Positions 44,033 to 64,000 of a stretch of 64,000 bases of DNA are shown in pieces. The DNA comes from Candidatus Endobugula sp. (lineage in GTDB: Bacteria; Pseudomonadota; Gammaproteobacteria; Pseudomonadales; Cellvibrionaceae). Position 1 is the stretch's first letter, and each line of letters begins with the position of its first letter. Made by a program: the position numbers and the translations under genes. The notes beneath the pieces were generated by a model. The model searched no databases. It was not told where the DNA came from and saw only the letters and a program-made list of their open reading frames with translations. The stretch spans positions 144,761 through 208,760 of the forward strand of contig JAHDEM010000001.1 of NCBI GenBank assembly GCA_020628895.1, given 5' to 3'.

Positions 44033-44095
44033 TTTTTAACTCCATGGCCTTATAATCACCAACGTCTGAAACACTTAGGTAGAGCTTATTACTGA
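44033..44095 (+). pseudogene. Remnant C-terminus of a DUF4396-like gene
   Basis: FLTPWPYNHQRLKHLGRAYY* versus FLAPWPYNYWRLKHLGKACH* of 26628-27080. Confidence 0.8.
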
Positions 44096-44096
44096 T

Positions 44097-44492: not shown

Positions 44493-44585
44493 CGCAGGAT
44501 AAATCCGTCTACGTAATACTCGCTTGAGGTGTTTACCTCAGCTAAACCTATTTATTTTTCGATCCCAATGCATTGGAGGTTTCTT

Positions 44586-45089: not shown

Positions 45090-46405
45090 TGTTTAGGATA
45101 AACACATTATGTATCGGAGCTGCTGGTCTATTGTTAAGTACTACCAGTTTCGCAAACAACTTATCACTGGAAGAGGCCATTGGCCAGGCAATCGCCAACG
45201 ATCCATGGTTAACAGCCAGTGAATATCAACAGGAAGCATTAGATAACCAATCGATTGCCGCAGGACAATTACCTGACCCCAAAGTATCGGTAGGACTAGC
45301 TAATTTGCCAACAGATACCTTTGATTTTGATCAAGAAGCTATGACGCAGCTAAAGTTTGGTGTCAGCCAACAGTTCCCCCGCGGTAAAACACGGCGACTG
45401 AAACAACAACAGCTAGCGCAACAAAGTGAGCAAACGGTTTTTCAGCGTGAAAATCGTAAAGCCATGGTGACGTTAACGATTACGCAGCTATGGCTGGATT
45501 GGTTAAAACAAGAAAAAATAATCGAACTGATCGAAAACGATCGCAGTTTATTCGAAGACTTGGCTGACATTGTCAACGCCAATTATGCCAGTGCCCTTGG
45601 GAAAACGCAGCAGCACGATATCATTCAAGCGCAAGTAGAACTGACACGTTTAGAAGATCGTTTATTCCGTCTTGCTGAGGCAGCCGACATTCATCAAGCC
45701 AAACTGAACGAGTGGCTGCCTGAGCCGCTTGATACACTGACAAATCTTGCATTACCGCCTCTACCTTTGAATGCTTCGAACGTTCTTAACAAGCTCGGTA
45801 ACAATATCCTCAAAAATAATGACACATTAAGTCAACACTTTTTACAACATCCCAAAATCTTACTGCTAGACCAACAAATTACGGTAAGTGATACCGCCAC
45901 ACAATTGGCCAAGCAACAATATAAACCTCAGTGGGGTATTAGCAGCAGTTATGCCTGGCGTGATGATGACCTGATGGGTAATGACCGTGCCGATTTATTA
46001 TCGGTAGGTGTCACATTTGATGCGCCTTTCTTTACAGCGAATCGTCAAGATAAACAGGTCAGTGCCACTATTGCACAAACCGAGGCAATTAAAACTCAAA
46101 AGTATCAAGTATTACGCCAATTCATTGCTGAAACCAATCAAGCGACAGCAAAACTTCAACGTTTAGATCAACGACAAGCGCTTTACCAAACGCGTTTGTT
46201 GGAAGAAATCCATGAGCAAGTTGAAGCCTCCTTGACAGCTTATACCAACGACAATGCGGATTTTAACCAAGTCGTACGTGCCCGTATCACCGAGTTAAAT
46301 AGTCGTATCGATGCACTAACGATTGATATTGATCGTTTAAAAACCATTGCACAATTAAATTATTTATTTACAACAACGACAGACTCAACAGGGGCCAAGC
46401 GATGA
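45089..46405 (+). CDS. cusC: TolC-family outer membrane factor of CusABC-type efflux
   Basis: TolC-like sequence, first of three overlapping/adjacent RND genes. Confidence 0.82.
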   Translation: MFRINTLCIGAAGLLLSTTSFANNLSLEEAIGQAIANDPWLTASEYQQEALDNQSIAAGQLPDPKVSVGLANLPTDTFDFDQEAMTQLKFGVSQQFPRGKTRRLKQQQLAQQSEQTVFQRENRKAMVTLTITQLWLDWLKQEKIIELIENDRSLFEDLADIVNANYASALGKTQQHDIIQAQVELTRLEDRLFRLAEAADIHQAKLNEWLPEPLDTLTNLALPPLPLNASNVLNKLGNNILKNNDTLSQHFLQHPKILLLDQQITVSDTATQLAKQQYKPQWGISSSYAWRDDDLMGNDRADLLSVGVTFDAPFFTANRQDKQVSATIAQTEAIKTQKYQVLRQFIAETNQATAKLQRLDQRQALYQTRLLEEIHEQVEASLTAYTNDNADFNQVVRARITELNSRIDALTIDIDRLKTIAQLNYLFTTTTDSTGAKR

Positions 46406-48243
46406 AGACATTAATCATTATTTTAATCAGCATGGCGATCGGTGGTGGGGCTGTTTTTTTTACACTTCCGCATATCAACACTGAAGCATTATCCTCAACG
46501 AATATGGGTAGCGATGAAAAAAAACCACTCTATTGGGTGGCACCTATGGATGCCAATTACCGTCGAGATGGACCGGGTAAATCACCGATGGGCATGGATC
46601 TAGTCCCTGTTTATGAAGAGGACAGTGGCGGTGCAGACGCAGGCCCAGGTACGATTAGCATTCACCCCAGCGTTGTTAATAACTTAGGGGTTCGTACTGC
46701 AACAACAGAGATGCGTACGTTGGATCGAATGATCAATACCGTCGGTTATGTGCAATATGATGAAGAATCACTCATTCATATTCACCCACGCGTCGAAGGC
46801 TGGGTAGAGAATTTATACGTTAAAGCAGAAGGCGATCCCGTTAAAAAAGGTCAGGCACTTTACGCTTTATATTCTCCGCAGCTAGTCACTGCACAAGAGG
46901 AATTGTTAATTGCCTTAAACCGTAAAAACCAGACCTTAATTGCTGCAGCAAAAGATCGGTTACGTGCGCTTCAATTGTCTAGCACATTTATTAATACACT
47001 GACTAAAACCCGCAAAGTCAAACAAACCGTGACCTTTTATGCACCGCAATCTGGTGTACTGGATCGGTTGAATATTCGCGAAGGTTTCTTTGTTAAGCCC
47101 GGCACCTCCATGATGTCGATCGGTTCTCTTGATGAGGTATGGGTTGAAGCAGAAGTCTTTGAACGACAAGCAGGGTTAATCGACGTGGGCTTACCCGTGA
47201 CCATGACACTGGATTACAAACCCAGTCAGCGTTGGCAGGGCAAGGTGGACTATATCTATCCCACATTAGATGCCAAAACGCGTACCCTGCGTATTCGGTT
47301 ACGCTTTGCCAACGATGACAAACAACTCAAGCCCAATATGTTCGCCCAGATTCAAATTAATGCTGAATCCGATGATAGTGTTTTAGTGGTACCTAACGAA
47401 GCAATTATTCGTACGGGTTCTCAAAACCGTGTGGTATTGGCTTTAGAGGAAGGGCAGTTTAAATCCATAGCAGTCACACTGGGGCAGAGCGGTGACCAAT
47501 GGACAGAAATCACCGAAGGCCTGTCAGAGGGTGACCGCGTTGTCACATCCGCACAATTCTTATTGGATTCAGAATCCAGCAAAACATCGGACTTTGTGCG
47601 TATGGAAGCCGCTGCACAACCTACTAGTGTCTGGGCAGCAGCACGCGTCATTGATGTGATGACCGATAGTGCAATGGTGAAGTTAGATCACGATCCTATC
47701 CCCGAGTGGGAATGGCCGCAAATGACGATGAATTTTGCGGTTTCAGATGAAGTCGATCTAAGTACTTTGAAGGAAGGGCAGTCACTGCATGTCGAAATCA
47801 ACAAAGTAGGCGATAGTGGTTTTTCCGTTACCCAAATTCATATTATGGAAAGAATGCAAGGCGAGCATGATGACCACGAGTCCATAGATCATTCTTCAAT
47901 GGATCACTCCACTATGGGGCATGCTGACGATTCGTCGATGGATCATAGCCAAGACGCAACCATGAACCATGACAAGCATGATATGGAAAATACCGATCAC
48001 GCTTCAATGGATCATGGCGAACACTCATCTATGTCTCATGATCAGCACGATATGAAAGACGTTGTTGATCATTCAAGTATGGATCATAGTCAACACACGG
48101 CGGAATCAGACTCGATGAATAATCATCACGATCATTCATCGATGGACCATACCGATCACTCCAACATGGATCACAGCCAGCATACGATGCCTGATCAAGC
48201 CGATTCAGATAAGGTTGATCACAGCAAGATGAATCATCATTAA
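46402..48243 (+). CDS. cusB: RND periplasmic adaptor CusB with HMBD, CusF-like domain and His/Met-rich tail
   Basis: YWVAPMDANYRRDGPGKSPMGMDLVPVYE; EWPQMTMNFAV; DHSSMDHS repeats. Confidence 0.92.
   Translation: MKTLIIILISMAIGGGAVFFTLPHINTEALSSTNMGSDEKKPLYWVAPMDANYRRDGPGKSPMGMDLVPVYEEDSGGADAGPGTISIHPSVVNNLGVRTATTEMRTLDRMINTVGYVQYDEESLIHIHPRVEGWVENLYVKAEGDPVKKGQALYALYSPQLVTAQEELLIALNRKNQTLIAAAKDRLRALQLSSTFINTLTKTRKVKQTVTFYAPQSGVLDRLNIREGFFVKPGTSMMSIGSLDEVWVEAEVFERQAGLIDVGLPVTMTLDYKPSQRWQGKVDYIYPTLDAKTRTLRIRLRFANDDKQLKPNMFAQIQINAESDDSVLVVPNEAIIRTGSQNRVVLALEEGQFKSIAVTLGQSGDQWTEITEGLSEGDRVVTSAQFLLDSESSKTSDFVRMEAAAQPTSVWAAARVIDVMTDSAMVKLDHDPIPEWEWPQMTMNFAVSDEVDLSTLKEGQSLHVEINKVGDSGFSVTQIHIMERMQGEHDDHESIDHSSMDHSTMGHADDSSMDHSQDATMNHDKHDMENTDHASMDHGEHSSMSHDQHDMKDVVDHSSMDHSQHTAESDSMNNHHDHSSMDHTDHSNMDHSQHTMPDQADSDKVDHSKMNHH
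47860..48240 (+). repeat. Imperfect coding repeats, (D/N)HSSMDHS-type metal-binding tail
   Basis: Repeated DHSSMDH / DHASMDH / DHSNMDH in the translation. Confidence 0.9.
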
Positions 48244-48256
48244 ATAGGAGTCAATC

Positions 48257-51200
48257 ATGATAGAAGCGATTATTCGTTGGTCGATTGGCAACCGTTTTTT
48301 GGTGTTGCTGGCGACCTTTATTATTACTGGCTGGGGATTGTATTCATTAAAAAACACCCCGCTGGATGCCATTCCTGACTTGTCTGATGTGCAGGTCATT
48401 ATTAAAACCTCGTACCCGGGGCAAGCACCGCAAGTGGTAGAGGATCAGGTAACATACCCACTGACGACGGCTATGTTATCCGTGCCTGGTGCCGAGACTG
48501 TTCGAGGCTATTCCTTTTTCGGTGATTCTTATGTGTACATTATTTTTAATGAAAATACGGATCTCTATTGGGCACGTAGTCGTGTATTGGAATATTTAAG
48601 CCAGGTTGCGCCATCACTCCCCAGCAATGCCAAACCACAACTGGGACCTGATGCAACGGGTGTGGGCTGGGTTTATGCCTATGCGCTGGTGGATCGTAGT
48701 GGGCAGCGAGATATTAGCCAATTGCGTAGTTTACAAGACTGGTTTTTAAAGTACGAATTACAAACCGTACCTGGGGTAGCTGAAGTGGCGACTATGGGCG
48801 GTATGGTCAAGCAATACCAAGTGGTAGTTGACCCAGACAAACTGCGTGCTTTTGATATTCCCTTATCCCATGTGCAAATGGCTATTCGCCGAGCCAATCA
48901 GGAAGTCGGGGCGTCGGTGATTGAAATGGCCGAAGCGGAATATATGGTACGTGCAACCGGCTATTTGGCCTCTATTGAGGATATTAATACCATTCCATTG
49001 GGACTCAATGTTAACGGGACACCTTTGTTGTTAAAGGATATTGCCCAAGTACAACTTGGCCCGCAAATGCGTCGAGGTGTCACCGAATTAAACGGTGAAG
49101 GTGAAGCCGTGGGTGGTGTCATCGTCATGCGCTTTGGTGAAAATGCACAAACCACTATTGAAGGTGTTAAAACTAAAATCGCTGAGCTGGAACAGGGCTT
49201 ACCTGAAGGCGTTGAGGTAGTCACCGTTTACGACCGTTCAGGATTAATTGAGCGTGCCGTTGATAATCTTTGGCATAAACTCTTGGAAGAGTTTCTCGTC
49301 GTTGCGTTGGTTTGTGTACTCTTTCTGTTCCATGTTCGTTCATCGCTGGTGGCGATTGTTAGCTTACCTGTGGGCATACTCGCTGCGTTTATTGTGATGC
49401 ACTGGCAGGGTATTAACGCCAACATCATGTCGTTGGGAGGAATCGCCATTGCTATTGGCGCTATGATCGATGGTGCCATAGTGATGATTGAAAATATGCA
49501 CAAGCATATGGAGAAAACACCACTGACCAAAGATAACCGCTGGGAAATCGTGACTCGCTCTGCCACAGAAGTAGGGCCAGCCTTATTTTTTAGTTTACTG
49601 ATTATCACCGTCAGTTTTGTTCCCGTGTTTACCTTAGAAGCGCAAGAAGGACGATTGTTTTCTCCATTGGCGTTTACGAAAACCTATGCCATGGCTGCCT
49701 CAGCAGCATTAGCCGTGACCTTGGTGCCCGTATTAATGGGCTACTTTATTCGTGGGCGCGTCATTGCCGAGCATAAAAATCCCGTTAATCGTTTGCTGAT
49801 TTTTTTGTACTTGCCGGTGCTGAAAAAAGTCTTGGCATTTCCTAAAACTACACTACTGATAGCACTAGTCATACTTGCTAGCACCTTGTGGCCTTTGGAG
49901 AAAATCGGCAGTGAGTTTATTCCACCGTTAGATGAAGGCGATTTAATGTACATGCCCACAACTTACCCCGGTATTTCTATTGGTAAAGCTCGTGAGCTGT
50001 TACAGCAAACGAATAAACTGATCAAAACCGTACCTGAGGTAGAGAGTGTCTTCGGTAAAGTGGGACGTGCAGATACCGCAACCGATCCAGCACCTTTGAC
50101 GATGATAGAGACGTTTATTCAGCTCAAAGATCGCAGTGAATGGCGACCGGGTATGACGACCGAAGGCCTTAAACAAGAGCTGGATAGTCTGGTTAAAATT
50201 CCCGGATTAACCAATGCGTGGGTCATGCCCATTAAAACGCGTATCGATATGTTAGCTACAGGTATCAAAACGCCTGTGGGCATTAAAGTCGCGGGCCCAG
50301 ACTTAGCGGTAATTCAGGATATTGGTCAACAACTGGAGGTGATTATGCAAGAGGTTCCGGGAACACTGTCTGTCTACTCTGAGCGTGTTGCCGGTGGTCG
50401 TTATATAAAAGTGGATATCGATCGTGTTAAAGCGGCACGATTTGGTTTAAACATTGCTGATGTTCAACAAGTGGTGTCTTCCGCGATTGGTGGCATGAAT
50501 GTGACTCAAACCATCGAAGGTTTGGAGCGTTACCCGGTGAATATTCGCTATCCACAAACTTATCGCAATTCACCTGAACAATTACGTCAACTGCCTATTG
50601 TGACACCCAGCGGCCAGCGTATCGGTTTAGGGGATGTCGCCACTATCGCTATTGAAGATGGCCCACCGGGGATTAAAAGTGAAAACGCGCGCTTAAATGG
50701 TTGGACGTTTGTTGATATTGAAGGCGTTGATATTGGCACTTATGTTGAGCAAGCTCAGCAAACTGTCAAAGAGCAATTGTCACTACCTGCGGGCTATTCC
50801 GTGATTTGGTCTGGCCAGTATGAATATATGCTGCGAGCCAAAGAGCGATTAACTTTCGTGATACCCCTTACCATTGCCATTATTGCTCTGCTGTTGTACC
50901 TGAACTTCAGAAGTGTTATCGAAGTCGCAATATTGCTAACAACATTGCCTTTTTCTGTCATAGGTAGTGTATGGCTGATGTACTGGCAGGACTTTAATTT
51001 TTCTATCGCGGTCGGCGTTGGATTTATTGCCTTAGCAGGAGTCGCTGTAGAAATTGGCGTGATTATGCTGGTCTATTTAAATCAAGCCTGGCAACGATAT
51101 CAGGAAAATAACACGCCAGACCTTCATGGTTTAAAAAATGCGATTCAAGAGGGTGCGGGTATGCGTATCCGTCCGGTGATGATGACCGCGGCTGCCATTA

Positions 51201-51403
51201 TTGTTGGCCTGCTGCCGATTCTGTATGGCACAGGAACCGGATCAGAAGTCATGAGCCGTATCGCAGCACCGATGGTGGGTGGCATGGTGAGTTCAGTTTT
51301 ATTAACGTTAATCGTATTACCTGCCATTTATTTTCTATGGAAAAAAAATGATTGTAAAAAATATATTCTTAGTGAGAAAAAACGTGAGGAAAAAAATGAC
51401 TAA
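48257..51403 (+). CDS. cusA: Heavy-metal RND efflux pump CusA
   Basis: 1048-aa RND; KNTPLDAIPDLSDVQVII; GAMIDGAIVMIENMHKH. Confidence 0.95.
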   Translation: MIEAIIRWSIGNRFLVLLATFIITGWGLYSLKNTPLDAIPDLSDVQVIIKTSYPGQAPQVVEDQVTYPLTTAMLSVPGAETVRGYSFFGDSYVYIIFNENTDLYWARSRVLEYLSQVAPSLPSNAKPQLGPDATGVGWVYAYALVDRSGQRDISQLRSLQDWFLKYELQTVPGVAEVATMGGMVKQYQVVVDPDKLRAFDIPLSHVQMAIRRANQEVGASVIEMAEAEYMVRATGYLASIEDINTIPLGLNVNGTPLLLKDIAQVQLGPQMRRGVTELNGEGEAVGGVIVMRFGENAQTTIEGVKTKIAELEQGLPEGVEVVTVYDRSGLIERAVDNLWHKLLEEFLVVALVCVLFLFHVRSSLVAIVSLPVGILAAFIVMHWQGINANIMSLGGIAIAIGAMIDGAIVMIENMHKHMEKTPLTKDNRWEIVTRSATEVGPALFFSLLIITVSFVPVFTLEAQEGRLFSPLAFTKTYAMAASAALAVTLVPVLMGYFIRGRVIAEHKNPVNRLLIFLYLPVLKKVLAFPKTTLLIALVILASTLWPLEKIGSEFIPPLDEGDLMYMPTTYPGISIGKARELLQQTNKLIKTVPEVESVFGKVGRADTATDPAPLTMIETFIQLKDRSEWRPGMTTEGLKQELDSLVKIPGLTNAWVMPIKTRIDMLATGIKTPVGIKVAGPDLAVIQDIGQQLEVIMQEVPGTLSVYSERVAGGRYIKVDIDRVKAARFGLNIADVQQVVSSAIGGMNVTQTIEGLERYPVNIRYPQTYRNSPEQLRQLPIVTPSGQRIGLGDVATIAIEDGPPGIKSENARLNGWTFVDIEGVDIGTYVEQAQQTVKEQLSLPAGYSVIWSGQYEYMLRAKERLTFVIPLTIAIIALLLYLNFRSVIEVAILLTTLPFSVIGSVWLMYWQDFNFSIAVGVGFIALAGVAVEIGVIMLVYLNQAWQRYQENNTPDLHGLKNAIQEGAGMRIRPVMMTAAAIIVGLLPILYGTGTGSEVMSRIAAPMVGGMVSSVLLTLIVLPAIYFLWKKNDCKKYILSEKKREEKND

Positions 51404-51677
51404 ATCAGTATTGTTATTATGTGGTATCACCGTGGCTTTATTGACACTGGCACTCAAGACTTATGCGCATGCGCCTGAGTTACATAAAAAAGAGAGTGCA
51501 GACAAACCGCAATGTGAAGCGATGCAAAAAATGGATCACTCTGATATGGATAAGGATATGGAGGATCCTATCATGCAAGCGATGATGGAGCAGTGTAAAG
51601 ACTGGCTCCATGATGAGCATGAACAAGATGTCAAAGAGCATCCCTCTGATGGCCATGATAAACACAATCAAGGTTAA
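51396..51677 (+). CDS. Small secreted Met/His/Asp-rich protein
   Basis: Signal peptide; CEAMQKMDHSDMDKDMEDPIMQAMMEQC. Confidence 0.65.
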   Translation: MTKSVLLLCGITVALLTLALKTYAHAPELHKKESADKPQCEAMQKMDHSDMDKDMEDPIMQAMMEQCKDWLHDEHEQDVKEHPSDGHDKHNQG

Positions 51678-51736
51678 CGATTCATGACGGTGAAGGTAAT
51701 AGACCTTCACCCACTCATTATGATTAGGAGAATACG

Positions 51737-52282
51737 ATGACTATTATAAAAACGCTAGTCGCTGTCATAATCTTCACTCTTGTTGTCGGTTTAGGTGTTA
51801 TCTATTCCGGTATTTACCCCATCGGTGCAGACCAGCGGCACTCTGCTGTGACTTTTTGGTTACTGGATACATTACGTAAACGCTCCGTTGCTCGTGCATC
51901 AGAAGATATCGAAGTCCCATCACTGGGAAGCCCGCAACAATTACTCAGTGGCGGGGCAGACTATAACGATATGTGTGCAGGCTGCCACCTTAAGCCCGGT
52001 GTCACAGAAACGGATATGACGATTGGTTTATATCCAACGCCACCTGATCTGACGGTACCACCAGAAAAACACGACCATGATCATGGCTCCGGTGGTCATG
52101 ATGACCCAGTGGTTATTGCTAAGCAGCAATACTGGGTCATTAAGCATGGCATTATGGCATCAGGCATGGCGGCTTTTGGGCCGACACACAGTGATGAACG
52201 CATTTGGGCGATGGTGGCTTTTTTACAGAAGTTGCCAGAAATGACCCCAGAGCAATATCAAATTATTACAACGAGGCGATAA
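51737..52282 (+). CDS. c-type cytochrome
   Basis: CAGCH heme motif, DHDHGSGGHDD insert. Confidence 0.82.
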   Translation: MTIIKTLVAVIIFTLVVGLGVIYSGIYPIGADQRHSAVTFWLLDTLRKRSVARASEDIEVPSLGSPQQLLSGGADYNDMCAGCHLKPGVTETDMTIGLYPTPPDLTVPPEKHDHDHGSGGHDDPVVIAKQQYWVIKHGIMASGMAAFGPTHSDERIWAMVAFLQKLPEMTPEQYQIITTRR

Positions 52283-52284
52283 CT

Positions 52285-52797
52285 ATGAAGATGCGAACAA
52301 TAACACTGGTTATCTGTCTGTTTCTGGTATTGATGGTGACGGCTTGTGATAAAAAAGAAAAGGAGACACCTGCTGTGTCAATAAATACAAGCAGTAACTC
52401 AGCTTCTTTTGCCGAGCTCACATTAACACCAAAATCAGGAACGGATCGTTGGTATTTTGCGGAGCAAGCAGAGCGTGGGCAGGCTGTTTTTGCGGCTAAC
52501 TGTGCTGTTTGCCATGGCAACAATGCAGAGGCTACACCGCACTGGAAAACCCCTAACGATAGTGGCCATTATCCGCCGCCACCTCTAAACGGTTCTGCTC
52601 ATGCTTGGCATCATCCTTTATCCATTCTTGGGCGCACTATTTATTTTGGTGGTGCACCAGTGGGAGGGCAAATGCCAGCCTTTAAAGATAAATTAACAGA
52701 ATCCGACATCATTGATGTCATTGCACACTTTCAAAGTTATTGGTCAGACGACATCTATGATCGCTGGTTACAAATTGAAAATAGTTCACGAAATTAA
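52285..52797 (+). CDS. c-type cytochrome lipoprotein
   Basis: VTACDKK lipobox, CAVCHG; paralogue of 27526-28041. Confidence 0.85.
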   Translation: MKMRTITLVICLFLVLMVTACDKKEKETPAVSINTSSNSASFAELTLTPKSGTDRWYFAEQAERGQAVFAANCAVCHGNNAEATPHWKTPNDSGHYPPPPLNGSAHAWHHPLSILGRTIYFGGAPVGGQMPAFKDKLTESDIIDVIAHFQSYWSDDIYDRWLQIENSSRN

Positions 52798-52823
52798 TAT
52801 TCCTATAACAGGAGAAAACCAAT

Positions 52824-53375
52824 ATGTTTACTCAACTTTTTTTACGCTTATTAGTCATCATGGTAGTTATCGTACCCATTTATTCTCAGGCGATAGAAAC
52901 AAAACCTTATGCCGGACAGCATACCCGATCCATTAAAAGTCTGAGTGATGATGATATTCATTCATTAAAAACAGGGCAGGGTTGGGGGCTGGCAAAGCCT
53001 GCAGAACTTAATGGTGTGCCAGGACCAGCACATATTTTGGAATTAAAAGATGAACTGAAACTATCCGAAGAACAACTGGTAGCCATTCAAGCACTGTGGG
53101 AAGAAATGAATCAGTCTGCACGACAATACGGTGAATTGTATCTGCAGAGCGAAGCTAAGATTGAAGCGTTTTTTAATACACCTGATGCAGACGAAGCGTT
53201 ATTACTGAAGTTACTTTCGGAGTCAGCGAATAATTTGGCACAGTTGCGCCATGTTCATCTACAGACACATTTAAAGGCTAAACCATTATTAACAGTGCAT
53301 CAAAATATGCTTTACCAAAAATTACGCGGATATGCTGATGGTACTCATCCAAAGGGGCATCAACATAAACATTAA
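52824..53375 (+). CDS. Periplasmic GQGWGLAKPAELNG-family protein
   Basis: Paralogue of 28077-28634. Confidence 0.75.
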   Translation: MFTQLFLRLLVIMVVIVPIYSQAIETKPYAGQHTRSIKSLSDDDIHSLKTGQGWGLAKPAELNGVPGPAHILELKDELKLSEEQLVAIQALWEEMNQSARQYGELYLQSEAKIEAFFNTPDADEALLLKLLSESANNLAQLRHVHLQTHLKAKPLLTVHQNMLYQKLRGYADGTHPKGHQHKH

Positions 53376-53382: not shown

Positions 53383-54813
53383 TCAGCACGCTTTATGAAA
53401 AGCGTGCTGTAACATAATCAATTCCTCATAAAACTGTCCAGACAGCGATAAATTTTTCTGATCAGCAACATAGACGCCTTCTTCTGTCATTGACTGAACA
53501 TTAATGTCTACATCCGAGTGTAAACTCTCTTCAGTGACCGGTGTAACAGGAGACCCTAAAGAAAGATTATTTTGCTGTTGATCACTTAGAATCATATCGA
53601 AGTTATCTCGTTCAATATGAGTTTCCTCTTGCATGTTATTGAGTTCAACTGTAGCTAAATGTTCGGGTAAATCATCACCAATAGATTTGGCATAAGTTAA
53701 CAGAGTGTCTTCCGCTAATATGTACATATAAGCAAAAGGGAGCTTTTCTTGTTGGGAACGCACAATACGTCCAAGCACTTGCCGAAAGTATAATTCTGTT
53801 TTAATACGGCTTAGATAGCAGCAAAGCTGCAAACGGGGAATATTGGTGCCTTCACTGATCATACCGATGGCGATAATCCATTGAGAGTCAGAGTGTTCAA
53901 ATTCTTCAATAATACGATGGGCATGATTATCTTCATGGGAGACAACAATCGACGATTGATCTAATTCACTCTTGAGTAATGCTTTAATCCAATAGGCATG
54001 ATGAACGGATGAGGCCACAATTAAACCAGCTGCCTGTGGATTTTGTTGGCGAATAGACTGTAGCTTTTCAACGGATTGTTGCAGCATAAAGGTCACAATC
54101 GACGAGTGGTGTAGTAAGTCACTATAACGAACATCAGTATTCTCGAGTAACTCACCGATACTACCATATTCCTCGGGTTCATCGGCTCTATTAGTATGAC
54201 GAATTTGGTCATTATCAATGGCTACTACTTTAGGGATCCGGCACACGCCATCATGAATAGCTTGCGCGAGGGAATAGATATAATCACATTCGAGTTTACT
54301 GGGATCACCACTATAACGTGCGAGCGCAATCGGTAATTTATCGGAGCGCCATGGCGTACCTGATAACGCTAATGTATAGGCTGCACGTGAACGAATATTC
54401 CGTAGTATTTTCTCTCCCCATACATTTGCCAAATTGATATCGTGACCGCCACAGTGATGAATTTCATCAAAGATAACAAACACACGATATTCTCGAAAAA
54501 CATCCCAAAAACTACCGGATAAAAAGCTTAAACTGTGATAGGTAAGCACTTGCCCTGACGATCCCATCCGACCATTCATACGCTTTTCTGTGATCGCTTC
54601 GAGGTTGTGCTGAAAACTGTTGGTGACACTAATGGATGGCGTGAAGCAAATCACTAAATCAATTTTATCAAGATCAAACAAGCGACTGGCTAGATGTGCG
54701 GCCATCCGTGTTTTGCCAGCACCTGGTGTTGCCATCGCTAGAAAATCGGTCTGACCGAGTTGGTATTTCAGTAGCGCAGTGGTAATGCATTCATCTTGCC
54801 ACAATCTTAACAT
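53383..54813 (-). CDS. DEAD/DEAH-box (type III restriction-like) helicase
   Basis: ATPGAGKTRMAAHLA Walker A; VIFDEIHHCGG; QVLGRIVRSQ motif VI. Confidence 0.88.
   Translation of the reverse strand: MLRLWQDECITTALLKYQLGQTDFLAMATPGAGKTRMAAHLASRLFDLDKIDLVICFTPSISVTNSFQHNLEAITEKRMNGRMGSSGQVLTYHSLSFLSGSFWDVFREYRVFVIFDEIHHCGGHDINLANVWGEKILRNIRSRAAYTLALSGTPWRSDKLPIALARYSGDPSKLECDYIYSLAQAIHDGVCRIPKVVAIDNDQIRHTNRADEPEEYGSIGELLENTDVRYSDLLHHSSIVTFMLQQSVEKLQSIRQQNPQAAGLIVASSVHHAYWIKALLKSELDQSSIVVSHEDNHAHRIIEEFEHSDSQWIIAIGMISEGTNIPRLQLCCYLSRIKTELYFRQVLGRIVRSQQEKLPFAYMYILAEDTLLTYAKSIGDDLPEHLATVELNNMQEETHIERDNFDMILSDQQQNNLSLGSPVTPVTEESLHSDVDINVQSMTEEGVYVADQKNLSLSGQFYEELIMLQHAFHKAC
53384..53409. terminator. 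Hairpin ending copper island, overlapping helicase 3' end
   Basis: CAGCACGCTTT...AAAGCGTGCTG. Confidence 0.7.
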
Positions 54814-54830
54814 AGTGTTTCCTTCATTAA

Positions 54831-55361
54831 TTAGCAGGCTACGGTCTCGATCAACTTCTCAATCGCACGAATACGACCTAGCATGCGATAGTTTTCATCA
54901 ACAACCTGCTTAAACTGGGTTGTTGCAACGACCTCTAGCTCTGGATATTGGTCACGAATACGTCGATATTCTTCAATCTCACCCAATTGGCTCAACATGG
55001 TTTGTCGATAAGACTTTAATTCTTCGTGAAGTACACTGTTCTCTGCAGAAGCTGCTACGGGCGTTTTGGGTGTATCATCTAGCATTTTCTGCTGCGGCAT
55101 TGATTGTTGTGCGTAGTACTCAGCAAAATAGGGGCTTTTTTCAAAATAGTGCTTTTTACTTCCGGGTACTGATTTGCGGATTAAAACGCCTCTATTGACA
55201 AGTGTTGTAAATTTTCCATTGATCCAACGGCGTACTGCCGCGGCGTCAAGTTTGCCATCGGTACACTGCTCAATAAATTGGTCCCTAATCTCGGTGACAC
55301 GAATACGTGCTGATTGGGATTGATGCAATACCGTTAAAAGGATTCGATCTTTATTTTTCAT
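54831..55361 (-). CDS. Hypothetical protein, possible winged-helix N-terminus
   Basis: Co-directional 17 bp upstream of helicase; basic N-terminal region. Confidence 0.55.
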   Translation of the reverse strand: MKNKDRILLTVLHQSQSARIRVTEIRDQFIEQCTDGKLDAAAVRRWINGKFTTLVNRGVLIRKSVPGSKKHYFEKSPYFAEYYAQQSMPQQKMLDDTPKTPVAASAENSVLHEELKSYRQTMLSQLGEIEEYRRIRDQYPELEVVATTQFKQVVDENYRMLGRIRAIEKLIETVAC

Positions 55362-55422
55362 GAGTTGATTCTTGCGCCAAAAAAAGAGGATTATAGTCCG
55401 TGGTCTTTAAATCCTCAATCCC

Positions 55423-55440
55423 GACAATGAAAGGATTGTC
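55423..55440. promoter_or_regulatory. Candidate XRE-protein operator dyad
   Basis: GACAAT-gaaagg-ATTGTC in the divergent intergenic region. Confidence 0.5.
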
Positions 55441-55458
55441 ATTAATCGGTTGGGATAA

Positions 55459-55686
55459 ATGGAAAACCTTGAGGTATGTTTCGGTCAAAATGTGCGTAAG
55501 GCTCGGAGAAAACAGCGTATTTCTCAAGAGAACCTTGCATTAATTGCCGGCATCGATCGCAGTTATATGAGTAGGATAGAGCGAGGGATTGTCAGTATTA
55601 CCTTGCAGAAAGCCTATGTGATCGCCCAAGCCTTAGAATGCGATATAAAAGACTTGTTGCCGACAATGGCACAACTGAAGGGCTAG
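55459..55686 (+). CDS. XRE-family HTH regulator (restriction C-protein-like size)
   Basis: ISQENLALIAGIDRSYMSRIERG. Confidence 0.87.
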   Translation: MENLEVCFGQNVRKARRKQRISQENLALIAGIDRSYMSRIERGIVSITLQKAYVIAQALECDIKDLLPTMAQLKG

Positions 55687-55688
55687 TA

Positions 55689-55913
55689 TCAACAACAGCT
55701 ATTTTTATTGTCTGGTGCTAACTGAATAGGAGGACAGGGAACAGTGCCATAGGAGCAATAAACACAGCAATCACCCGCTTTAGGGCTAATAACTTCGCTA
55801 CATTCTGTGCACTCATAAAACCATTGGCATGCATCCGTCGGCATCGTTTCCTGTTTCGAGAACCCACAATTAGGGCAAGTAATGGTAGATTCTAACTGAT
55901 ATTCTGCATTCAT
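55689..55913 (-). CDS. GDCCVxC-motif protein (putative mercury-resistance associated)
   Basis: TCPNCGFSK; CTECSEVISPKAGDCCVYCSYG; adjacent to merP. Confidence 0.85.
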   Translation of the reverse strand: MNAEYQLESTITCPNCGFSKQETMPTDACQWFYECTECSEVISPKAGDCCVYCSYGTVPCPPIQLAPDNKNSCC

Positions 55914-55915
55914 GA

Positions 55916-56275
55916 TTATTGGTCTTTTCGAGTTGAAGGATAGCCCGTATTTTTTGTCGCTAGTGTTAAGTTTTCTAGCGTAACCTTCTCATCATCATAA
56001 GTGACTACAGCCTCCTTATTTTCTAAGCTAGTTTCTACAGTTTTAACGCCATTCACCGCTTCTAATGATTTCTGAACAGTGATAGGGCAAACAGGGCAAT
56101 TCATGTCAGGAACAGAGAGGGTAACGCGCTGTATGTCTGCCCACGATGGAGATGTGAAACTGATAGTAGATAAAATAAATACGGAAAAAATACGTTTCAT
56201 AATGACCTCTAGAAAAACCATAGTACCCAATAGGGGCTCAAAATTAATATGATAGATATGACCAACAACCCCCAA
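55916..56275 (-). CDS. merP: Periplasmic mercury-binding protein MerP
   Basis: VPDMNCPVCPITVQKSLEAVNGVKTVE; true start probably internal (MKRIFSVF). Confidence 0.88.
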   Translation of the reverse strand: MGVVGHIYHINFEPLLGTMVFLEVIMKRIFSVFILSTISFTSPSWADIQRVTLSVPDMNCPVCPITVQKSLEAVNGVKTVETSLENKEAVVTYDDEKVTLENLTLATKNTGYPSTRKDQ

Positions 56276-56562
56276 AATATGAGGCGATAATAGCGGCGGG
56301 TTTCAGGAATGGCACAAACACTTCCTTCTTTACACTGTGAGATCGGGCGATAAAGCTGCCAGCCGATATAGAGGTATAAGATAGCAAAAACACCAATAAA
56401 GTAGGGACGTACTGCATCAAATGCAGTTAACGTGCTAATCCAGGACCCAGTAACACCAAGAACCAATAATAGTAATGGTCCGATACAGCAGACACTTGCA
56501 CCAATTGCAGCAAATATACCGCCACCTAAAAGCCAGTTAGGCGAGCTTCTTTTCATAATCAT
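56209..56562 (-). CDS. merT: Mercury transporter MerT
   Basis: GASVCCIGPLLLLVLGVTGSWI. Confidence 0.9.
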   Translation of the reverse strand: MIMKRSSPNWLLGGGIFAAIGASVCCIGPLLLLVLGVTGSWISTLTAFDAVRPYFIGVFAILYLYIGWQLYRPISQCKEGSVCAIPETRRYYRLIFWGLLVISIILILSPYWVLWFF

Positions 56563-56577
56563 GACCTCTGCTTATGA

Positions 56578-56608
56578 GTATAAGTGCCGTACCCAAGTAC
56601 GGAGTCAA
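56578..56608 (-). promoter_or_regulatory. mer promoter/operator
   Basis: Minus strand TTGACT-CCGTACTTGGGTACGGCAC(19 bp)-TTATAC with CCGTAC/GTACGG dyad. Confidence 0.85.
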
Positions 56609-56620
56609 CTAACACGGCAT

Positions 56621-57007
56621 TTAATTCGTAATTAATGACTCAATTAAAGGGCAGTGGTTTCCATCAATATTCGAGTGGCATGCTTGAAGTAACTGTTTTA
56701 AGCTGTGTTCCAGTTGTTTTAGGTCGCTAATTTTTGTTTGAATGCTTTGCAGCTTATTTTCTGCTAATTGCTGGATATCTTGACAACTGTCAGTATTGAG
56801 CTGGATAAGAGTATTAATTTCGTTCAGTGTGAATCCTAGTGTTTGTGCACGTTTGATAAATAATAGTGCCGTGAGTGTTGACTCTGGGTATTGACGGTAG
56901 CCTTGGGTCGGTTTCTGCGGCTGAGTAATAAGTTGTTGCCGCTCATAGTAACGTACCGTTTCTACGGTTACATCTGCTGCTTTAGCGAGTTGGCTAATAG
57001 TGTACAT
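56621..57007 (-). CDS. merR: MerR-family regulator of the mer genes
   Basis: DVTVETVRYYERQQLI; C-terminal CHSNIDGNHCPLI. Confidence 0.87.
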   Translation of the reverse strand: MYTISQLAKAADVTVETVRYYERQQLITQPQKPTQGYRQYPESTLTALLFIKRAQTLGFTLNEINTLIQLNTDSCQDIQQLAENKLQSIQTKISDLKQLEHSLKQLLQACHSNIDGNHCPLIESLITN

Positions 57008-57021: not shown

Positions 57022-57999
57022 TTAAATATCGTCGTTATGGTCAAAAAATTGTTCCATCTTTTCAAATAATACTAGTGCTGCGTTGTCAGTAAATTGCTGG
57101 CCTTCTTCAATGTATTCATGGACGGTAGCATCATTTTTCCAGCCGCCTTGTTTTTTGATAAGTCCAAAATCAACTTTTTCTCGAGCGGCAGACGTGGATA
57201 ATCCTCGGCGAAAGCTATGGCTACTCAACAGAGGAATAAAATCAAACCCACTTTCACTGCCTAATAGTTTAAGTATTTGATTAATAGAGCCTGGATTAAG
57301 CGGCTTTTCACCCAACTGATCCCAGCGATTAATCGATCGAAAAATGGGCCCTTTGGTGATAGCAGAAAGTTCCAACCAGTTTATAAGAGCTCTTACTGGG
57401 CAAATAGTTTCTCGTTCTGTTGACGGAATGGCACGTATGATACCTTCGCCTTCTTGGTCTGTTTTTGAGCGTGCTAATGTGATCACAACACCATCAGAGT
57501 GCCATTCAATGTCCTCGTATTGAATAGCAGCCAACTCGCTACGCCTAAAAGCCCCAAAAAAGGCGATTAGGATTAAGGCAACATCACGTGCTTTCTTTTG
57601 TGAATCCGGCTTTGCCTGTAATGTTTTAATGAGTGTCGCAATATGCTCTAAACGTAGGGCTTTCGCTTTTTGCTTGGGCTTACCGTGCTGACGTTGAATA
57701 CCTTTCATGGTCTTTTTGACCAATAAGCTCTGAGTGGGGTCGTTGAATCCTTGCGAGGCATGCCACTGACTGAGCGCTGATAAATGCAGTGATAGGCTCC
57801 TAGGGTTTAGTGTTTGTGCATTTTTAGTGAGATAAGTCAGGATGTGCTCTTCAGAGCAGGGGAGTTTTAACCCCCACTGCTGTACACGACGTACCGCCGA
57901 TTGATAAGTTTTACGAGTATTTTCCGAGGTTGCTGCCGTAATGTAGTGTTGCGGCGTAGCTCGTTTTATTTCATTCGCGGTGGTGCGTATTTCTCTCAT
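57022..57999 (-). CDS. Tyrosine recombinase, TnpS-like
   Basis: Catalytic region HSFRRGLSTSAA...GGWKNDATVHEYIE; divergent from KfrA-like gene. Confidence 0.87.
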   Translation of the reverse strand: MREIRTTANEIKRATPQHYITAATSENTRKTYQSAVRRVQQWGLKLPCSEEHILTYLTKNAQTLNPRSLSLHLSALSQWHASQGFNDPTQSLLVKKTMKGIQRQHGKPKQKAKALRLEHIATLIKTLQAKPDSQKKARDVALILIAFFGAFRRSELAAIQYEDIEWHSDGVVITLARSKTDQEGEGIIRAIPSTERETICPVRALINWLELSAITKGPIFRSINRWDQLGEKPLNPGSINQILKLLGSESGFDFIPLLSSHSFRRGLSTSAAREKVDFGLIKKQGGWKNDATVHEYIEEGQQFTDNAALVLFEKMEQFFDHNDDI

Positions 58000-58063
58000 T
58001 ATTGCTTGTCAGCCTATTTCCAGTGTTTTGTATCGTCTTACATTTGCCTAATCGTTTTTCCAT

Positions 58064-58103
58064 TATATAACATACGATAATATTGATTATAGTAAGTTAT
58101 ATA
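58064..58103. other. Candidate recombinase core site (rst-like dyad)
   Basis: TATATAACATACGATAAT-attg-ATTATAGTAAGTTATATA, 18-bp arms with 2 mismatches. Confidence 0.6.
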
Positions 58104-58134
58104 GACTAATTAATAAACAAATAAATATTGACAA

Positions 58135-58163
58135 TATTATGTAATATTACATAATACGTATTA
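58135..58163. promoter_or_regulatory. Overlapping palindromes upstream of KfrA-like gene
   Basis: TATTATGTAATATTACATAATA and TAATACGTATTA, both perfect. Confidence 0.6.
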
Positions 58164-58184
58164 CATTATGAAATATAACGAGTA

Positions 58185-59216
58185 ATGATTATGGCCAGAG
58201 CAGGCGTTACTTATACTGAAGTTGCTAAAGCAGCGGAAACATTAAAGCAGCAGGGCCAAGACCCAACGATTGAGCGTGTGCGCGGACTTTTAGGAACGGG
58301 TAGTAACAGCACGCTAAATAAGCATTTAAAGCAATGGAAAAACACACATCTTGAAGAAGGAAGCATCTCTGGCTTACCGGATGATTTGCTAAGAACGGTG
58401 AAGTCGCTTCATGAAAGCATTCAAGGTAATGCCGAGCTAAAGATTGAAGAAGTTACAAGAGAACTTAACGCTGTTATTGATGACCTTAGAGCTAAGCTTA
58501 CAGCGGCTCAAGAACAGAATAATAGACTTACCCATAACAATGAGCAGTTAACTCAACAAAGCGAAGAGTTAAGCAATCAATTAGAAATTGCCAATAAAGA
58601 CAACCTTACTTATCAGCTAAAACAAGAACAGCTAGAGCAAAATGTTACTCGTTTAACATCGGAATTAGCTGAGGAAAAAGGGAGCGCCAAACAACTACAG
58701 GCACATATTGAGCACTATCAAGAAAAAACAGCTGAGGATCGCCAGCAAGAAAGAAATCAACATCAATTAGCACAGCAACAGTCGCAGAATTATATTAATC
58801 AATTAACAGTTCAAGTCAACGAATTAACTAAGCAAATCTCAGTATTGCGCTCGCAAGAGGAAGAGAGTAGCACTGCTATCTCTAATTTAGAAAAAGAAAA
58901 AGTTGTATTGGCACAAAGACTTAATGAAGAAACCAATAAAAATGAAAATTTAAATGCCAATTTGACACTTAAAACTTCAGAAATTGAAAAACTGATAGAA
59001 ACAAAACAAAAATTGCAGGATGATTATAGATCAGCGTTTGCTGAAAAATCAGTCGCTGAAAAAGCAGTTGAACATCTATCAGTTACTCTTCAAAAAACTG
59101 AGTCTGACCTTGATGATGCGAAAGAACGCTTGCTGTTAGTAAGTGAAGAAAACAAACTCGTCATACAACAAAAAGCAGAAATGCAAGGTCAATTAAACCA
59201 GTTACAGAATTCGTGA
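58185..59216 (+). CDS. KfrA-like DNA-binding coiled-coil protein, TnpT-like
   Basis: N-terminal AAETLKQQGQDPTIERVRGLLGTGSNSTLNKHLKQW then long coiled coil. Confidence 0.82.
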   Translation: MIMARAGVTYTEVAKAAETLKQQGQDPTIERVRGLLGTGSNSTLNKHLKQWKNTHLEEGSISGLPDDLLRTVKSLHESIQGNAELKIEEVTRELNAVIDDLRAKLTAAQEQNNRLTHNNEQLTQQSEELSNQLEIANKDNLTYQLKQEQLEQNVTRLTSELAEEKGSAKQLQAHIEHYQEKTAEDRQQERNQHQLAQQQSQNYINQLTVQVNELTKQISVLRSQEEESSTAISNLEKEKVVLAQRLNEETNKNENLNANLTLKTSEIEKLIETKQKLQDDYRSAFAEKSVAEKAVEHLSVTLQKTESDLDDAKERLLLVSEENKLVIQQKAEMQGQLNQLQNS

Positions 59217-59240: not shown

Positions 59241-59984
59241 ATGGCAACTAATAGTAAGATTGAATGGACAGAACAAACATGGAATCCTGTAACCGGTTGT
59301 ACAAAAGTATCGCCTGGTTGTAAGTATTGTTATGCTGAAGTTATGGCAAAACGTTTACAAGCAATGGAGGCGCCTGGATATGAGAATGGTTTTAGTCAAA
59401 TTAGCTTAATGTACGATCGATTAGATCAGCCTAAGCGACGTAAAAAACCAACAATATACTTTGTAAACTCCATGAGTGATTTGTTTCATGAAAGCGTGCC
59501 TGATGATTTTATTGACTTAGTCTTTGATACGATTTGGCAAACACCACGACACTCGTATCAGATACTCACAAAACGCTCTAAGCGCATGAGAGATTACTTT
59601 AAAAAGCGTTTGGTACCAGATAATGCATGGCTAGGGGTTTCGGTAGAAGATAAAGAGTATGGGGTACCAAGAATTGCAGACCTGCAAAACATTAATGCAA
59701 AAACTCGCTTCTTATCAGTCGAGCCACTTTTAGAAAAACTAGGGCGTATTCCATTAAAAGGCATTCATTGGGTGATTGTTGGTGGTGAGTCTGGTGTAAA
59801 AGCACGCCCAATGCGGGAAGAGTGGGTATTATCATTACGTGACCAATGTCGTCGCTATGAAATTGATTTCTTCTTTAAACAGTGGGGCAGCTGGGGTAAA
59901 GATGGAATCAAAAGAAATAAGTCTGCGAATGGTCGACAACTAGAGGGGCAAACATGGGATATGATACCAGCGATTGCCGTTTAA
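59241..59984 (+). CDS. DUF5131 / phage Gp37-Gp68 family three-Cys-motif protein
   Basis: IEWTEQTWNPVTGCTKVSPGCKYCYAEVMAKRLQ. Confidence 0.9.
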   Translation: MATNSKIEWTEQTWNPVTGCTKVSPGCKYCYAEVMAKRLQAMEAPGYENGFSQISLMYDRLDQPKRRKKPTIYFVNSMSDLFHESVPDDFIDLVFDTIWQTPRHSYQILTKRSKRMRDYFKKRLVPDNAWLGVSVEDKEYGVPRIADLQNINAKTRFLSVEPLLEKLGRIPLKGIHWVIVGGESGVKARPMREEWVLSLRDQCRRYEIDFFFKQWGSWGKDGIKRNKSANGRQLEGQTWDMIPAIAV

Positions 59985-60004: not shown

Positions 60005-61180
60005 TTGGCAATTCCAGAACATTATATTGGTAGAGAGCAAGCACTTGTAAAGCATACGATATTAAAAGATTATATACTACGTTTATTTATGATTATTGGG
60101 CAATCAGGTGAAGCTACAATCAATTTTGTTGATTGTTTTGCTGGCCCGTGGTGCGAAGGAGATGCCGATCTAAAAGATACCTCTATCGGTATTTCTATCA
60201 ACGAAATCAACAAGGCTATCAATACTCTCAAAAAGAATAATAAAAGTGTTAAATTTAGGGCACTTTATATAGAAAAAGATGATGAAGCTTTCAAAAAACT
60301 GAATGCTTTCATTTCTAAATCATCACATCAGCAACTTGACGCTTCTTGTGTACAAGGCGATTACACCCAAAAAATAGATGAAATTGTTAGCTGGGCCGGA
60401 GATTATTTTACATTTTTCTTCATTGACCCCAAGGGATGGAAAGATGTTGTTAGCCCTGAGGTTTTACGCCCGCTATTACAAATCAAAAAATCCGAATTTT
60501 TAATCAATCTTATGTATGACTTCGCCAATCGAGCTGCCAGTATGAGTAAGCATATAGAAGATATTGAATCTCTAGTCGGTGAGAGAATTCATCTAACAGG
60601 TGAAGAGACATCTGATGTTCGTCAAAATATTTTTCTTAGTACATATTGTAAAAATATTAAATCAATCTATCAAACGGATAAGGCCAACAAAGTTCGTGCC
60701 TCTTATTTACCAATATATAGGCCTGGAAGTGAAAAAGTCCTTTATTTTTTAGTGTATTTTACTTCGCACCCAACAGGAATTAAAACGTTTAAAGAAACAT
60801 CTGAAAAAATGCTCTATGTTCAGCGAGTAACACAACAAGAAGTGAGACTAAAGAAGCAAGAAGAACAAAGAGGAACTGGAGATTTGTTTGGTTGCGATGA
60901 ATCACTAGAATTAACATCTGAAAAAAATAATAAGTACCAAGCTAAATATTATTTAGAAGATAAGCTTTCAGATGCTGAAGATATACTCATAGATATTGAC
61001 TGCTGGGCAGACTTTTTAGAGGAAAGTGGCTTATACCCAACTGATTTTCAACTTGCAATAAAAGAGTTATATCAGCAGGGCAGTGTTGTTAATATAGACT
61101 CTGATGTTAGCAGACGCAGAACACAATTTATTCAACCCAAATGGAAAAGCAAAAGTGAGCGTTGGAAAAAAATAAAATAG
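60005..61180 (+). CDS. tcmP: Three-Cys-motif partner protein TcmP
   Basis: INFVDCFAGPW, FFIDPKGWKDV, adjacency to DUF5131; TTG start assumed. Confidence 0.87.
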   Translation: MAIPEHYIGREQALVKHTILKDYILRLFMIIGQSGEATINFVDCFAGPWCEGDADLKDTSIGISINEINKAINTLKKNNKSVKFRALYIEKDDEAFKKLNAFISKSSHQQLDASCVQGDYTQKIDEIVSWAGDYFTFFFIDPKGWKDVVSPEVLRPLLQIKKSEFLINLMYDFANRAASMSKHIEDIESLVGERIHLTGEETSDVRQNIFLSTYCKNIKSIYQTDKANKVRASYLPIYRPGSEKVLYFLVYFTSHPTGIKTFKETSEKMLYVQRVTQQEVRLKKQEEQRGTGDLFGCDESLELTSEKNNKYQAKYYLEDKLSDAEDILIDIDCWADFLEESGLYPTDFQLAIKELYQQGSVVNIDSDVSRRRTQFIQPKWKSKSERWKKIK

Positions 61181-61215: not shown

Positions 61216-61851
61216 CTATTTTACACCAATATCTTCCCTACGTTCCTTCAGTGCTTGGCGCACTATTTGAATAGCGGATGATAAAAATAATCCTGACATA
61301 ATAGCTGCAACAATGAGGTCAGGCCATCGACTTGCTGTACTCCAAACACTCAATGCGGCAATCATAACGGCAACATTACCTATTGCATCATTACGCGAAC
61401 AAAGCCAAACGGAGCGGACATTTGCGTCTCCATCTTTGTATCGTACAAGAATCAACACACTGGCTAGGTTCGTCATAAGAGCTAAAAAACCAATGGCTCC
61501 CATGATCTCTGCTTGCGGTATATCCGCATAGAAAACACGGTAAAGAGTGGAGCCCAATACCCAGAACCCCATCAAGAAAAGACTAGCGCCTTTAAAAAGA
61601 GCCGCATTCGTGCGCACCTGGATTGACGCCCCGATCACTGCTAGTGAGATACCGTAAGTCAATGCATCCCCCAGAAAATCAAGCGCATCCGCTTGGAGCG
61701 CTTGTGATTTTGCCAGCTGTCCCGCTGTTATCTCAACGATAAACATGATCGCATTCAATGCGATAACAACCCACAAACGCCGCTTGTAATCCTCTGAAAT
61801 GCCATCAAACTTTGTATTATTTTCGCAACATTTAGCCATTGAAAGCTCCAT
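61216..61851 (-). CDS. Short cation diffusion facilitator-like transporter
   Basis: QALQADALDFLGDALTYGISL; SRNDAIGNVAVMIAALSVW. Confidence 0.85.
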   Translation of the reverse strand: MELSMAKCCENNTKFDGISEDYKRRLWVVIALNAIMFIVEITAGQLAKSQALQADALDFLGDALTYGISLAVIGASIQVRTNAALFKGASLFLMGFWVLGSTLYRVFYADIPQAEIMGAIGFLALMTNLASVLILVRYKDGDANVRSVWLCSRNDAIGNVAVMIAALSVWSTASRWPDLIVAAIMSGLFLSSAIQIVRQALKERREDIGVK

Positions 61852-61914: not shown

Positions 61915-62331
61915 ATGTTTTCTATTGGAGAGCTTTCAAAACAAGCCAAGGTTAAGATTCCTACGATTCGTTATTATGAGAGTATTGGCTTATTAGCGCC
62001 TGCTGAACGTACAGAAGGAAATCAACGCCGTTACACAGCAGAAGGCCTAGAGCGCTTAGGCTTTATTAAACACGCAAGAGAGCTCGGTTTCTCAGTTGAG
62101 TCAATCTCATCGTTGATTGAGTTGCAAGAACACCCTGATAGATCTTGTTATGAGGCTACAGAACTCGCCGAAACCCAACTCCGTGCAGTCCGAGCAAAGA
62201 TTAGACAATTACGCTCATTGGAACAGGAGTTAGCACGCATATCGACAGGTTGTAGCGGGGATGATGTCTCTGAAAATTGTTATGTTTTATCTGCTTTAGC
62301 TAACCATAATTTATGTAACAAAGACCATTGA
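61915..62331 (+). CDS. MerR-family heavy-metal regulator (PbrR/CadR-like)
   Basis: KVKIPTIRYYESIGLLAPAERTEGNQRRYT. Confidence 0.87.
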   Translation: MFSIGELSKQAKVKIPTIRYYESIGLLAPAERTEGNQRRYTAEGLERLGFIKHARELGFSVESISSLIELQEHPDRSCYEATELAETQLRAVRAKIRQLRSLEQELARISTGCSGDDVSENCYVLSALANHNLCNKDH

Positions 62332-62556: not shown

Positions 62557-62649
62557 CTACAAGAGGGCGGTGAACTGATTTACCCTAAAACCCAGTTTAT
62601 TAAACTGAAATGGTCAAGCAAAAGTGAGCGCTGGAGAAAGATAAAATAA
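62557..62649 (+). pseudogene. Remnant C-terminus of a second TcmP-like gene
   Basis: LQEGGELIYPKTQFIKLKWSSKSERWRKIK* versus TQFIQPKWKSKSERWKKIK* at the end of 60005-61180. Confidence 0.8.
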
Positions 62650-62656
62650 TAAATAC

Positions 62657-63439
62657 TTATATATTTGCCAATGCATCTTCTACGACTTCTTCTGGCGGCT
62701 CTTCATAAATAATAGTGGTTGATGGATTAACATGACCAGCAATTTTTTGTGCGATTTTCAATGACTTTTTCTGTTTATGAATAATATTAGTGATTAATGC
62801 TCGTCGCCCAGAATGAGAACTTGCTTTTTCAATACCCGCCCAAGAGCGCAACATCAGAGCCATGTGTTCTTGCAAAGTGTTAGGAGAGTAGGGACCACCT
62901 TTTTGTGTTAAGAAAAGGGGGGCAGTAGGTTTTAAATGTGAATCTTTTTCTAACCGTATTTGCAGATAATTAGCCAGCGCTTTACGAAGCTCATCATCAA
63001 CCATTGGTAAATCACGTGACTTACCTTTATGTTTTTTAACAGGAGGATAAAAGTCTTCCGGGTTAATTTCAGCCCCAGCTTTTGCTAAAGCTTCTACTTG
63101 GCTAATCATCGCATCAAAGGCTTCGATTTTAAAACTAACCGATTGGCGCTTATACGTAGATTTAGAACGTTTCATCGCATCTGCGCCTTTGGTGTAAGCT
63201 GCAGGCAAACTCATCACTTCATGCAACACAAAGGATCGATCAGTGCTTTTGGTGTAATTATCGAGACTAGCAATTTCTTTGACTTGGAGTAGAGCAATTT
63301 CTTGAGCTCGCAGGCCAAGCTTGAAGCTGATCTGCATAATTGCCGTATTCTTTTCTGGATGACGTTTGGATTTAATAGCATCGAATAATTGTGCTTGTTG
63401 CTGCTTGCTAGGAACACGTGCTTGACCAGATTTCGCCAT
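62657..63439 (-). CDS. Tyrosine recombinase/integrase
   Basis: KLGLRAQEIALLQV; SSHSGRRALITNIIHK; AGHVNPSTTIIYEE. Confidence 0.87.
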   Translation of the reverse strand: MAKSGQARVPSKQQQAQLFDAIKSKRHPEKNTAIMQISFKLGLRAQEIALLQVKEIASLDNYTKSTDRSFVLHEVMSLPAAYTKGADAMKRSKSTYKRQSVSFKIEAFDAMISQVEALAKAGAEINPEDFYPPVKKHKGKSRDLPMVDDELRKALANYLQIRLEKDSHLKPTAPLFLTQKGGPYSPNTLQEHMALMLRSWAGIEKASSHSGRRALITNIIHKQKKSLKIAQKIAGHVNPSTTIIYEEPPEEVVEDALANI

Positions 63440-63765: not shown

Positions 63766-64000
63766 TGATGTTGTGTGCCTGATATTGCCAGTAACTTTCA
63801 AAATAACAGGCCTAGAGATTATCAGACTTAATTAAACACGATCAAAACTCCTAAAACTGTTGTACAGCTTTAATTACATCAAAAATAATATGAAAGACGG
63901 CATTACTGAGTAGCTTTAAAAATAGCTATATAATTATATATAAATCAGTAGCTTATGATAGCTTTGTGGAAGATTGTCCCTCTATATGGTAAAACACCCA

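Follow-up and report, generated by a model that had tools for sequence, protein, structure and literature searches.

The tyrosine recombinase TnpS, the helper protein TnpT and the site rst have been described as a cointegrate resolution system, and TnpS with TnpT has already been reported in more than one TnpA subgroup (PMC7157771). The type element is Tn4651 from pWW0, and work on TnXocp1 and Tn4651 has described rst as holding a TnpT accessory site besides a TnpS core (PMC4619425). Tn4651 has divergent tnpS and tnpT genes with tnpA far off, an arrangement also found at the locus described here, but the proteins of the two are only 34% (TnpS), 23% (TnpT) and 22% (TnpA) identical. The mercury transposon of pIP40a, which is also present in genome G239 (TnpA 97% identical), is like this locus in its divergent tnpT and tnpS with an rst core, in having merR directly after tnpS and in its terminal repeats; it differs in its end sequence, in a TnpA of only 24% identity and in carrying a classical mer operon with merA. 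The only solved TnpA structure found by sequence was that of the Tn4430 transposase (PDB 7QD4, E 1.8e-69), and Tn4430 is resolved by TnpI (PMC7157771), unlike the element with TnpS and TnpT considered here.

The DNA analysed, referred to as the window, is a stretch of 64,000 nucleotides from Candidatus Endobugula sp. (contig JAHDEM010000001.1). Its features are collected in Table 1. tnpA and tnpS are co-oriented, as they are in pIP40a, ANA3, G239 and G262.

Table 1 Features of the putative transposon, in window positions
Feature	Position	Strand	Remarks
Left direct-repeat copy ATCTCT	35949-35954	.	6 bp, flush with terminal repeat
Left terminal inverted repeat	35955-35990	+	GGGTGATTCTCTATAAAGAGGGGTAAAGTTCCACAA; imperfect similarity on to about 36013
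NA37/YejK-like protein	36192-37286	+	Pfam NA37, E 2.5e-56
407-aa partner of NA37/YejK-like protein	37276-38499	+	
tnpA	38587-41676	-	1029 aa, Tn3-family transposase, reading frame open
Perfect palindrome	41741-41798	.	58 bp, GTAC-centred, between tnpA and SprT-like gene
SprT-like gene	41921-42736	+	Divergent from tnpA; Pfam SprT-like, E 1.9e-12
Copper cargo	42736-53375	+	MerR regulator, glutaredoxin/MauE, CopL-like, DUF411, CusC, CusB, CusA, two cytochromes c, 183-aa protein
DEAD helicase	53383-54813	-	Three-gene cassette 53383-55680
176-aa protein	54831-55361	-	Three-gene cassette 53383-55680
XRE regulator	55459-55680	+	Three-gene cassette 53383-55680
GDCCVxC	55689-55913	-	Operon 55689-57007
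merP	55916-56275	-	Operon 55689-57007
merT	56209-56562	-	Operon 55689-57007
merR	56621-57007	-	Operon 55689-57007
tnpS	57022-57999	-	325 aa, tyrosine recombinase of TnpS/TnpT resolution system
rst core	58068-58099	.	TAACATACGATAA-TATTGA-TTATAGTAAGTTA; 13-bp arms, 6-bp spacer
Putative TnpT-side accessory site	58134-58170	.	Block around TATTAC(A/G)T, adjoins tnpT
tnpT	58185-59216	+	343 aa, KfrA_N plus coiled-coil helper protein
DUF5131	59241-59984	+	
TcmP	60005-61180	+	
CDF cation exporter	61216-61851	-	
MerR regulator (right cargo)	61915-62331	+	
260-aa tyrosine-recombinase-like protein	62657-63439	-	Adjoins right end, not TnpS-like
Right terminal inverted repeat	63964-63999	-	Read inward on minus strand: GGGTGTTTTACCATATAGAGGGACAATCTTCCACAA
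Right direct-repeat copy ATCTCT	Base 64000 plus 156-160 of right neighbour (L007)		

The recombinase, its helper and the rst site

A sequence-only reading of this DNA had proposed that a 325-aa recombinase and a 343-aa KfrA-like protein, encoded divergently across 185 bp, form a TnpS/TnpT pair. Both ORFs were found as described, with Pfam matches to Phage_integrase (E 9.5e-16) and KfrA_N (E 1.5e-22), respectively. Against known Tn3-family elements the identity reaches 58% for TnpS and 36% for TnpT, with 52-57% and 32-36% for the nearest elements; the values for pIP40a, Shewanella ANA-3 and Alteromonas elements are 54-57% and 34-36%. Relatives of TnpS with 58-59% identity occur in five other genomes of the same class, and a contig scan of genomes with a single TnpS query returned only 3 loci.

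The catalytic residues of TnpS (R152, K179, H261, R264, W287 and Y296) are conserved, and in a tree a 100/99 branch separated all TnpS sequences (13/13) from TnpI, IntI1 and another integrase. TnpT aligned over its full length with the TnpTs of pIP40a, Amac, ANA3 and ZM3 (E 1e-38 to 1e-48), whereas IncP KfrA aligned with it over 36 residues only. The tree and the short KfrA alignment rule out an ICE integrase accompanied by a plasmid KfrA, the outcome that would have overturned the proposal. Judged by their sequences, and with an rst core between their genes, the 325-aa protein is a TnpS and the 343-aa protein a TnpT, as had been suggested.

For the rst site, a weight matrix was built from 10 relatives and scores were compared with those of 5000 shuffles. 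The core in the window scored 23.6 against a shuffle maximum of 17.6 (0/5000). Inverted 13-bp arms around a 6-bp spacer lie in the same intergenic place in nearly all relatives, Tn4651 and pADP-1 being the exceptions. The block taken as the putative accessory site corresponds to conserved columns in a nine-sequence alignment.

Ends, transposase and cargo

The region from 33 to 53 kb was scanned for ends against the whole flank from 58 to 72.6 kb. A single inverted pair (28/37) emerged, starting with GGGTG... at 35955 and with its inverse ending at 63999; no comparable pair was seen in 12 shuffled sequences. The two ends agree at 27/36 positions without gaps, and a 60-bp gapped alignment scored 54, which none of 5000 shuffles reached (maximum 26). 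The imperfect inverted repeats are thus of about 60 bp, in keeping with the 38 bp or more usual in the Tn3 family. The left-end pattern recurs in the assembly only at the right end and in the copy of that end within the scaffold overlap. Ends had been sought up to about 250 bp from the tnpA stop, or by match to the ends of pIP40a, ANA3, Amac, ISVsa19 and G358, and none were found; the ends came to light only in the wider scan because a two-gene cargo sits between tnpA and the left end. The element so bounded measures 28.05 kb and contains tnpA as well as tnpS/tnpT. The earlier suggestion of one large metal-resistance transposon is thus borne out in that a single element with ends and a direct repeat is seen, but its edges are at 35955 and 63999 rather than at 38.5 and 59 kb.

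The direct repeat, taken as a target-site duplication, reads as 6 bp, whereas those of the Tn3 family are of 5 bp; it may be a 5-bp duplication plus one chance base, and a 6-bp direct repeat also flanks the related element of G591. On the right the flank is interrupted by a scaffold gap: the neighbouring sequence opens with 100 N, after which the final 55 bases of the window recur unchanged. It appears that the assembler joined two contigs through this 55-bp overlap, in which case the contig break coincides exactly with the right end of the transposon. The gap and overlap may be a sign that the source population contains the insertion at more than one site. An empty site was sought at loci L070-L072 without success; relatives there matched only one flank each.

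The transposase scored 612.7 bits with the NCBIfam model transpos_Tn3 (cut-off 500), and its acidic residues D711, D783 and E915 are invariant across 18 TnpAs, so it has the DDE transposase characteristic of the Tn3 family. It is encoded by the one Tn3 tnpA in the whole assembly (2.9 Mb, 99 contigs, with the window in contig C9). The label "Tn4651/Tn5041-type" given to the locus in the sequence-only reading is wrong for this protein. Its identity is 22% with Tn4651 and 22-24% when pIP40a and ANA-3 are included, and the AU test rejected a clade with Tn4651, pIP40a and ANA-3 (p 5.5e-52), which places it outside the Tn4651 subgroup; a clade with Dyella and G262 was rejected as well (p 7e-5). The TnpAs of ISVsa19 and the G358 element are of the same lineage and 38-39% identical, with ISVsa19 at 38%, but neither SprT nor TnpS/T was seen there, and in G358, unlike the window, a tyrosine recombinase lies directly upstream of tnpA.

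The ends point the same way. In ungapped comparison in register, the left end matched that of a Sulfitobacter element at 22/36 positions (p <=0.0005) and that of a Thiothrix element at 21/36 (p <=0.0025), the closest matches found; both elements share the TnpA lineage but carry the serine resolvase TnpR in place of TnpS/T. A similar end (GGGTATAACTACATAAA...) is seen in the G723 element, which shares this TnpA lineage. The ends are unlike those of pIP40a, Amac and G262 (p 0.09-0.98). Ends of Tn4651-subgroup type were rejected with pIP40a, the TnpA of which groups with Tn4651, standing in for the subgroup (p 0.10-0.95). By these comparisons the terminal repeats are of the type of the broader TnpA lineage and unlike those of the TnpS/T-bearing elements tested.

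The placing of tnpA some 15 kb away with copper and mercury genes between was correct as to positions and CusCBA, but the mercury operon lacks merA. MerR, MerP and GDCCVxC are above their NCBIfam cut-offs, and merR-merT-merP-GDCCVxC without merA is a complete operon type that is present elsewhere; it is collinear in G297 and G239-C25, without TnpS and near the same cytochrome genes. The GDCCVxC gene and these collinear copies led to rejection of the idea that this is a truncated merA operon. A search of the assembly for a MerA ortholog carrying the N-terminal metal-binding domain found none, and GDCCVxC occurs in 63/369 genomes sampled in the class. The XRE/176-aa/DEAD helicase trio travels as a cassette and is also found on P. 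aeruginosa and Alteromonas plasmids, and relatives of the helicase and the 176-aa protein lie near the tnpA of G653 and of G447.

Among the remaining cargo, the pair between tnpA and the left end is distantly like anti-phage DS1_1/DS1_2, at 59.6 of 330 bits and 42.9 of 315 bits (NCBIfam), both below cut-off. The DUF5131 of the DUF5131-TcmP pair matches PADLOC candidate families. The 3' end of TcmP recurs as an incomplete copy at 62600-62650, which suggests a duplication or an insertion as the origin of the CDF-MerR segment.

The tnpA-palindrome-SprT core

Genes for a window-type TnpA and an SprT-like protein are divergent in six other genomes of the same order (G447, G575, G653, G722, G672 and G633; loci L117-L127), and the seven SprT-associated TnpAs form a 100/99 clade. 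At 7/7 of these loci the best intergenic palindrome is GTAC-centred. Those of the window, G447 (44 bp) and G575 (42 bp) each beat 500/500 shuffles; at the other four loci the palindromes are of 16-18 bp and each is individually weak. The palindrome is a possible operator or recombination site. Eukaryotic relatives of SprT-like proteins cut DNA-bound proteins. No terminal repeats were found at most SprT-tnpA loci, and the literature search found no paper naming both SprT and 'Tn3 family transposase'.

The G447 locus has much in common with the window, sharing tnpA-palindrome-SprT, the helicase cassette, merRTP-GDCCVxC, a cytochrome and CusCBA with it (for CusA, 170 residues were compared and the identity was 87%), but it has no TnpS/T and no convincing transposon ends within 40 kb. 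It is conceivable, at a little less than an even chance, that tnpA, a long GTAC palindrome and a divergent SprT-like gene make up the core of a Tn3-family lineage not described before, in which the palindrome and the SprT-like protein may act in transposition, its control or resolution, and that the window element swapped the usual resolvase for TnpS/T.

Exchange of the resolution module

Terminal repeats enclose tnpA together with TnpS/T in eight other elements of three TnpA lineages, represented by pIP40a, ANA-3, G239 and G156, by Amac and G141, and by G262 and G375; the window adds a fourth. Between G156 and Amac, TnpS is 86% but TnpA only 23% identical and, therefore, the resolution module has been exchanged. 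Since TnpS with TnpT was already known from more than one TnpA subgroup, it is the lineage that is new here and not the principle. In other members of the window TnpA lineage the resolvase is a TnpI-like tyrosine recombinase or the serine resolvase TnpR, or none is recognised, and the window element, therefore, probably acquired its TnpS/T module by exchange.

The pair is probably the cointegrate-resolution module (TnpS, TnpT and rst) of one 28.05-kb Tn3-family transposon at 35955-63999. TnpA bound to the ends would generate a cointegrate via paste-and-copy transposition, and TnpS with TnpT would then recombine the two rst cores, separating donor and target. That TnpS/T would resolve the cointegrates of its own element is suggested by its position and integrity. 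Set against this reading are the failure to find an empty site, the scaffold gap on the right, the 15 kb between tnpA and tnpS, their GC of about 33% vs about 43%, and the finding of no TnpS/T pair in the other members of the SprT-tnpA clade examined.

These observations leave some room for TnpS/TnpT/rst having been carried along passively, or being what is left of an older TnpS/T transposon trapped within the present one, with resolution carried out by host recombination or another recombinase. The TnpA lineage of the window differs from that of every TnpS/T-partnered TnpA found, Tn elements with TnpS/T but without tnpA have been published (pZM3H1, PMC3606827), and the adjacency of merR to tnpS, shared with pIP40a, would suit such an origin. 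A remnant is nevertheless rather unlikely: the rst core, the catalytic residues of TnpS and a TnpT of full length have all been kept, no foreign terminal repeats turned up within the element, and module exchange is common among intact elements. Resolution might also involve the 260-aa recombinase or the tnpA-SprT palindrome. A TnpI-like recombinase beside SprT in G722, G672 and G633, and the recurrence of the palindrome at every tnpA-SprT locus, would favour one of them as the working system instead of TnpS/T, but the 260-aa protein is neither TnpI- nor TnpS-like, it may be partial, since its Pfam match begins at position 62 of the profile, and no recombinase adjoins the palindrome within the window. 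There is only a slim chance that either is the working system.

It is extremely improbable that the region is a metal-resistance island of unrelated parts with end repeats arising by chance. The clustering of merRTP-GDCCVxC with cytochrome genes in genomes where TnpS is absent, and the fact that left and right synteny come from different relatives, could be read in that way, but the score of the paired ends, the direct repeat flush with them, their lineage-type sequence and the contig break at the end all argue for a single element.

The TnpS/TnpT module, then, is an exchangeable unit that passes from one Tn3-family transposase to another, and this exchange reaches the window lineage too, in which no other TnpS/TnpT case was found. 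The same lineage has a conserved tnpA-palindrome-SprT core for which no described role was found. Module exchange of this kind bears on the assembly of large metal-resistance elements.
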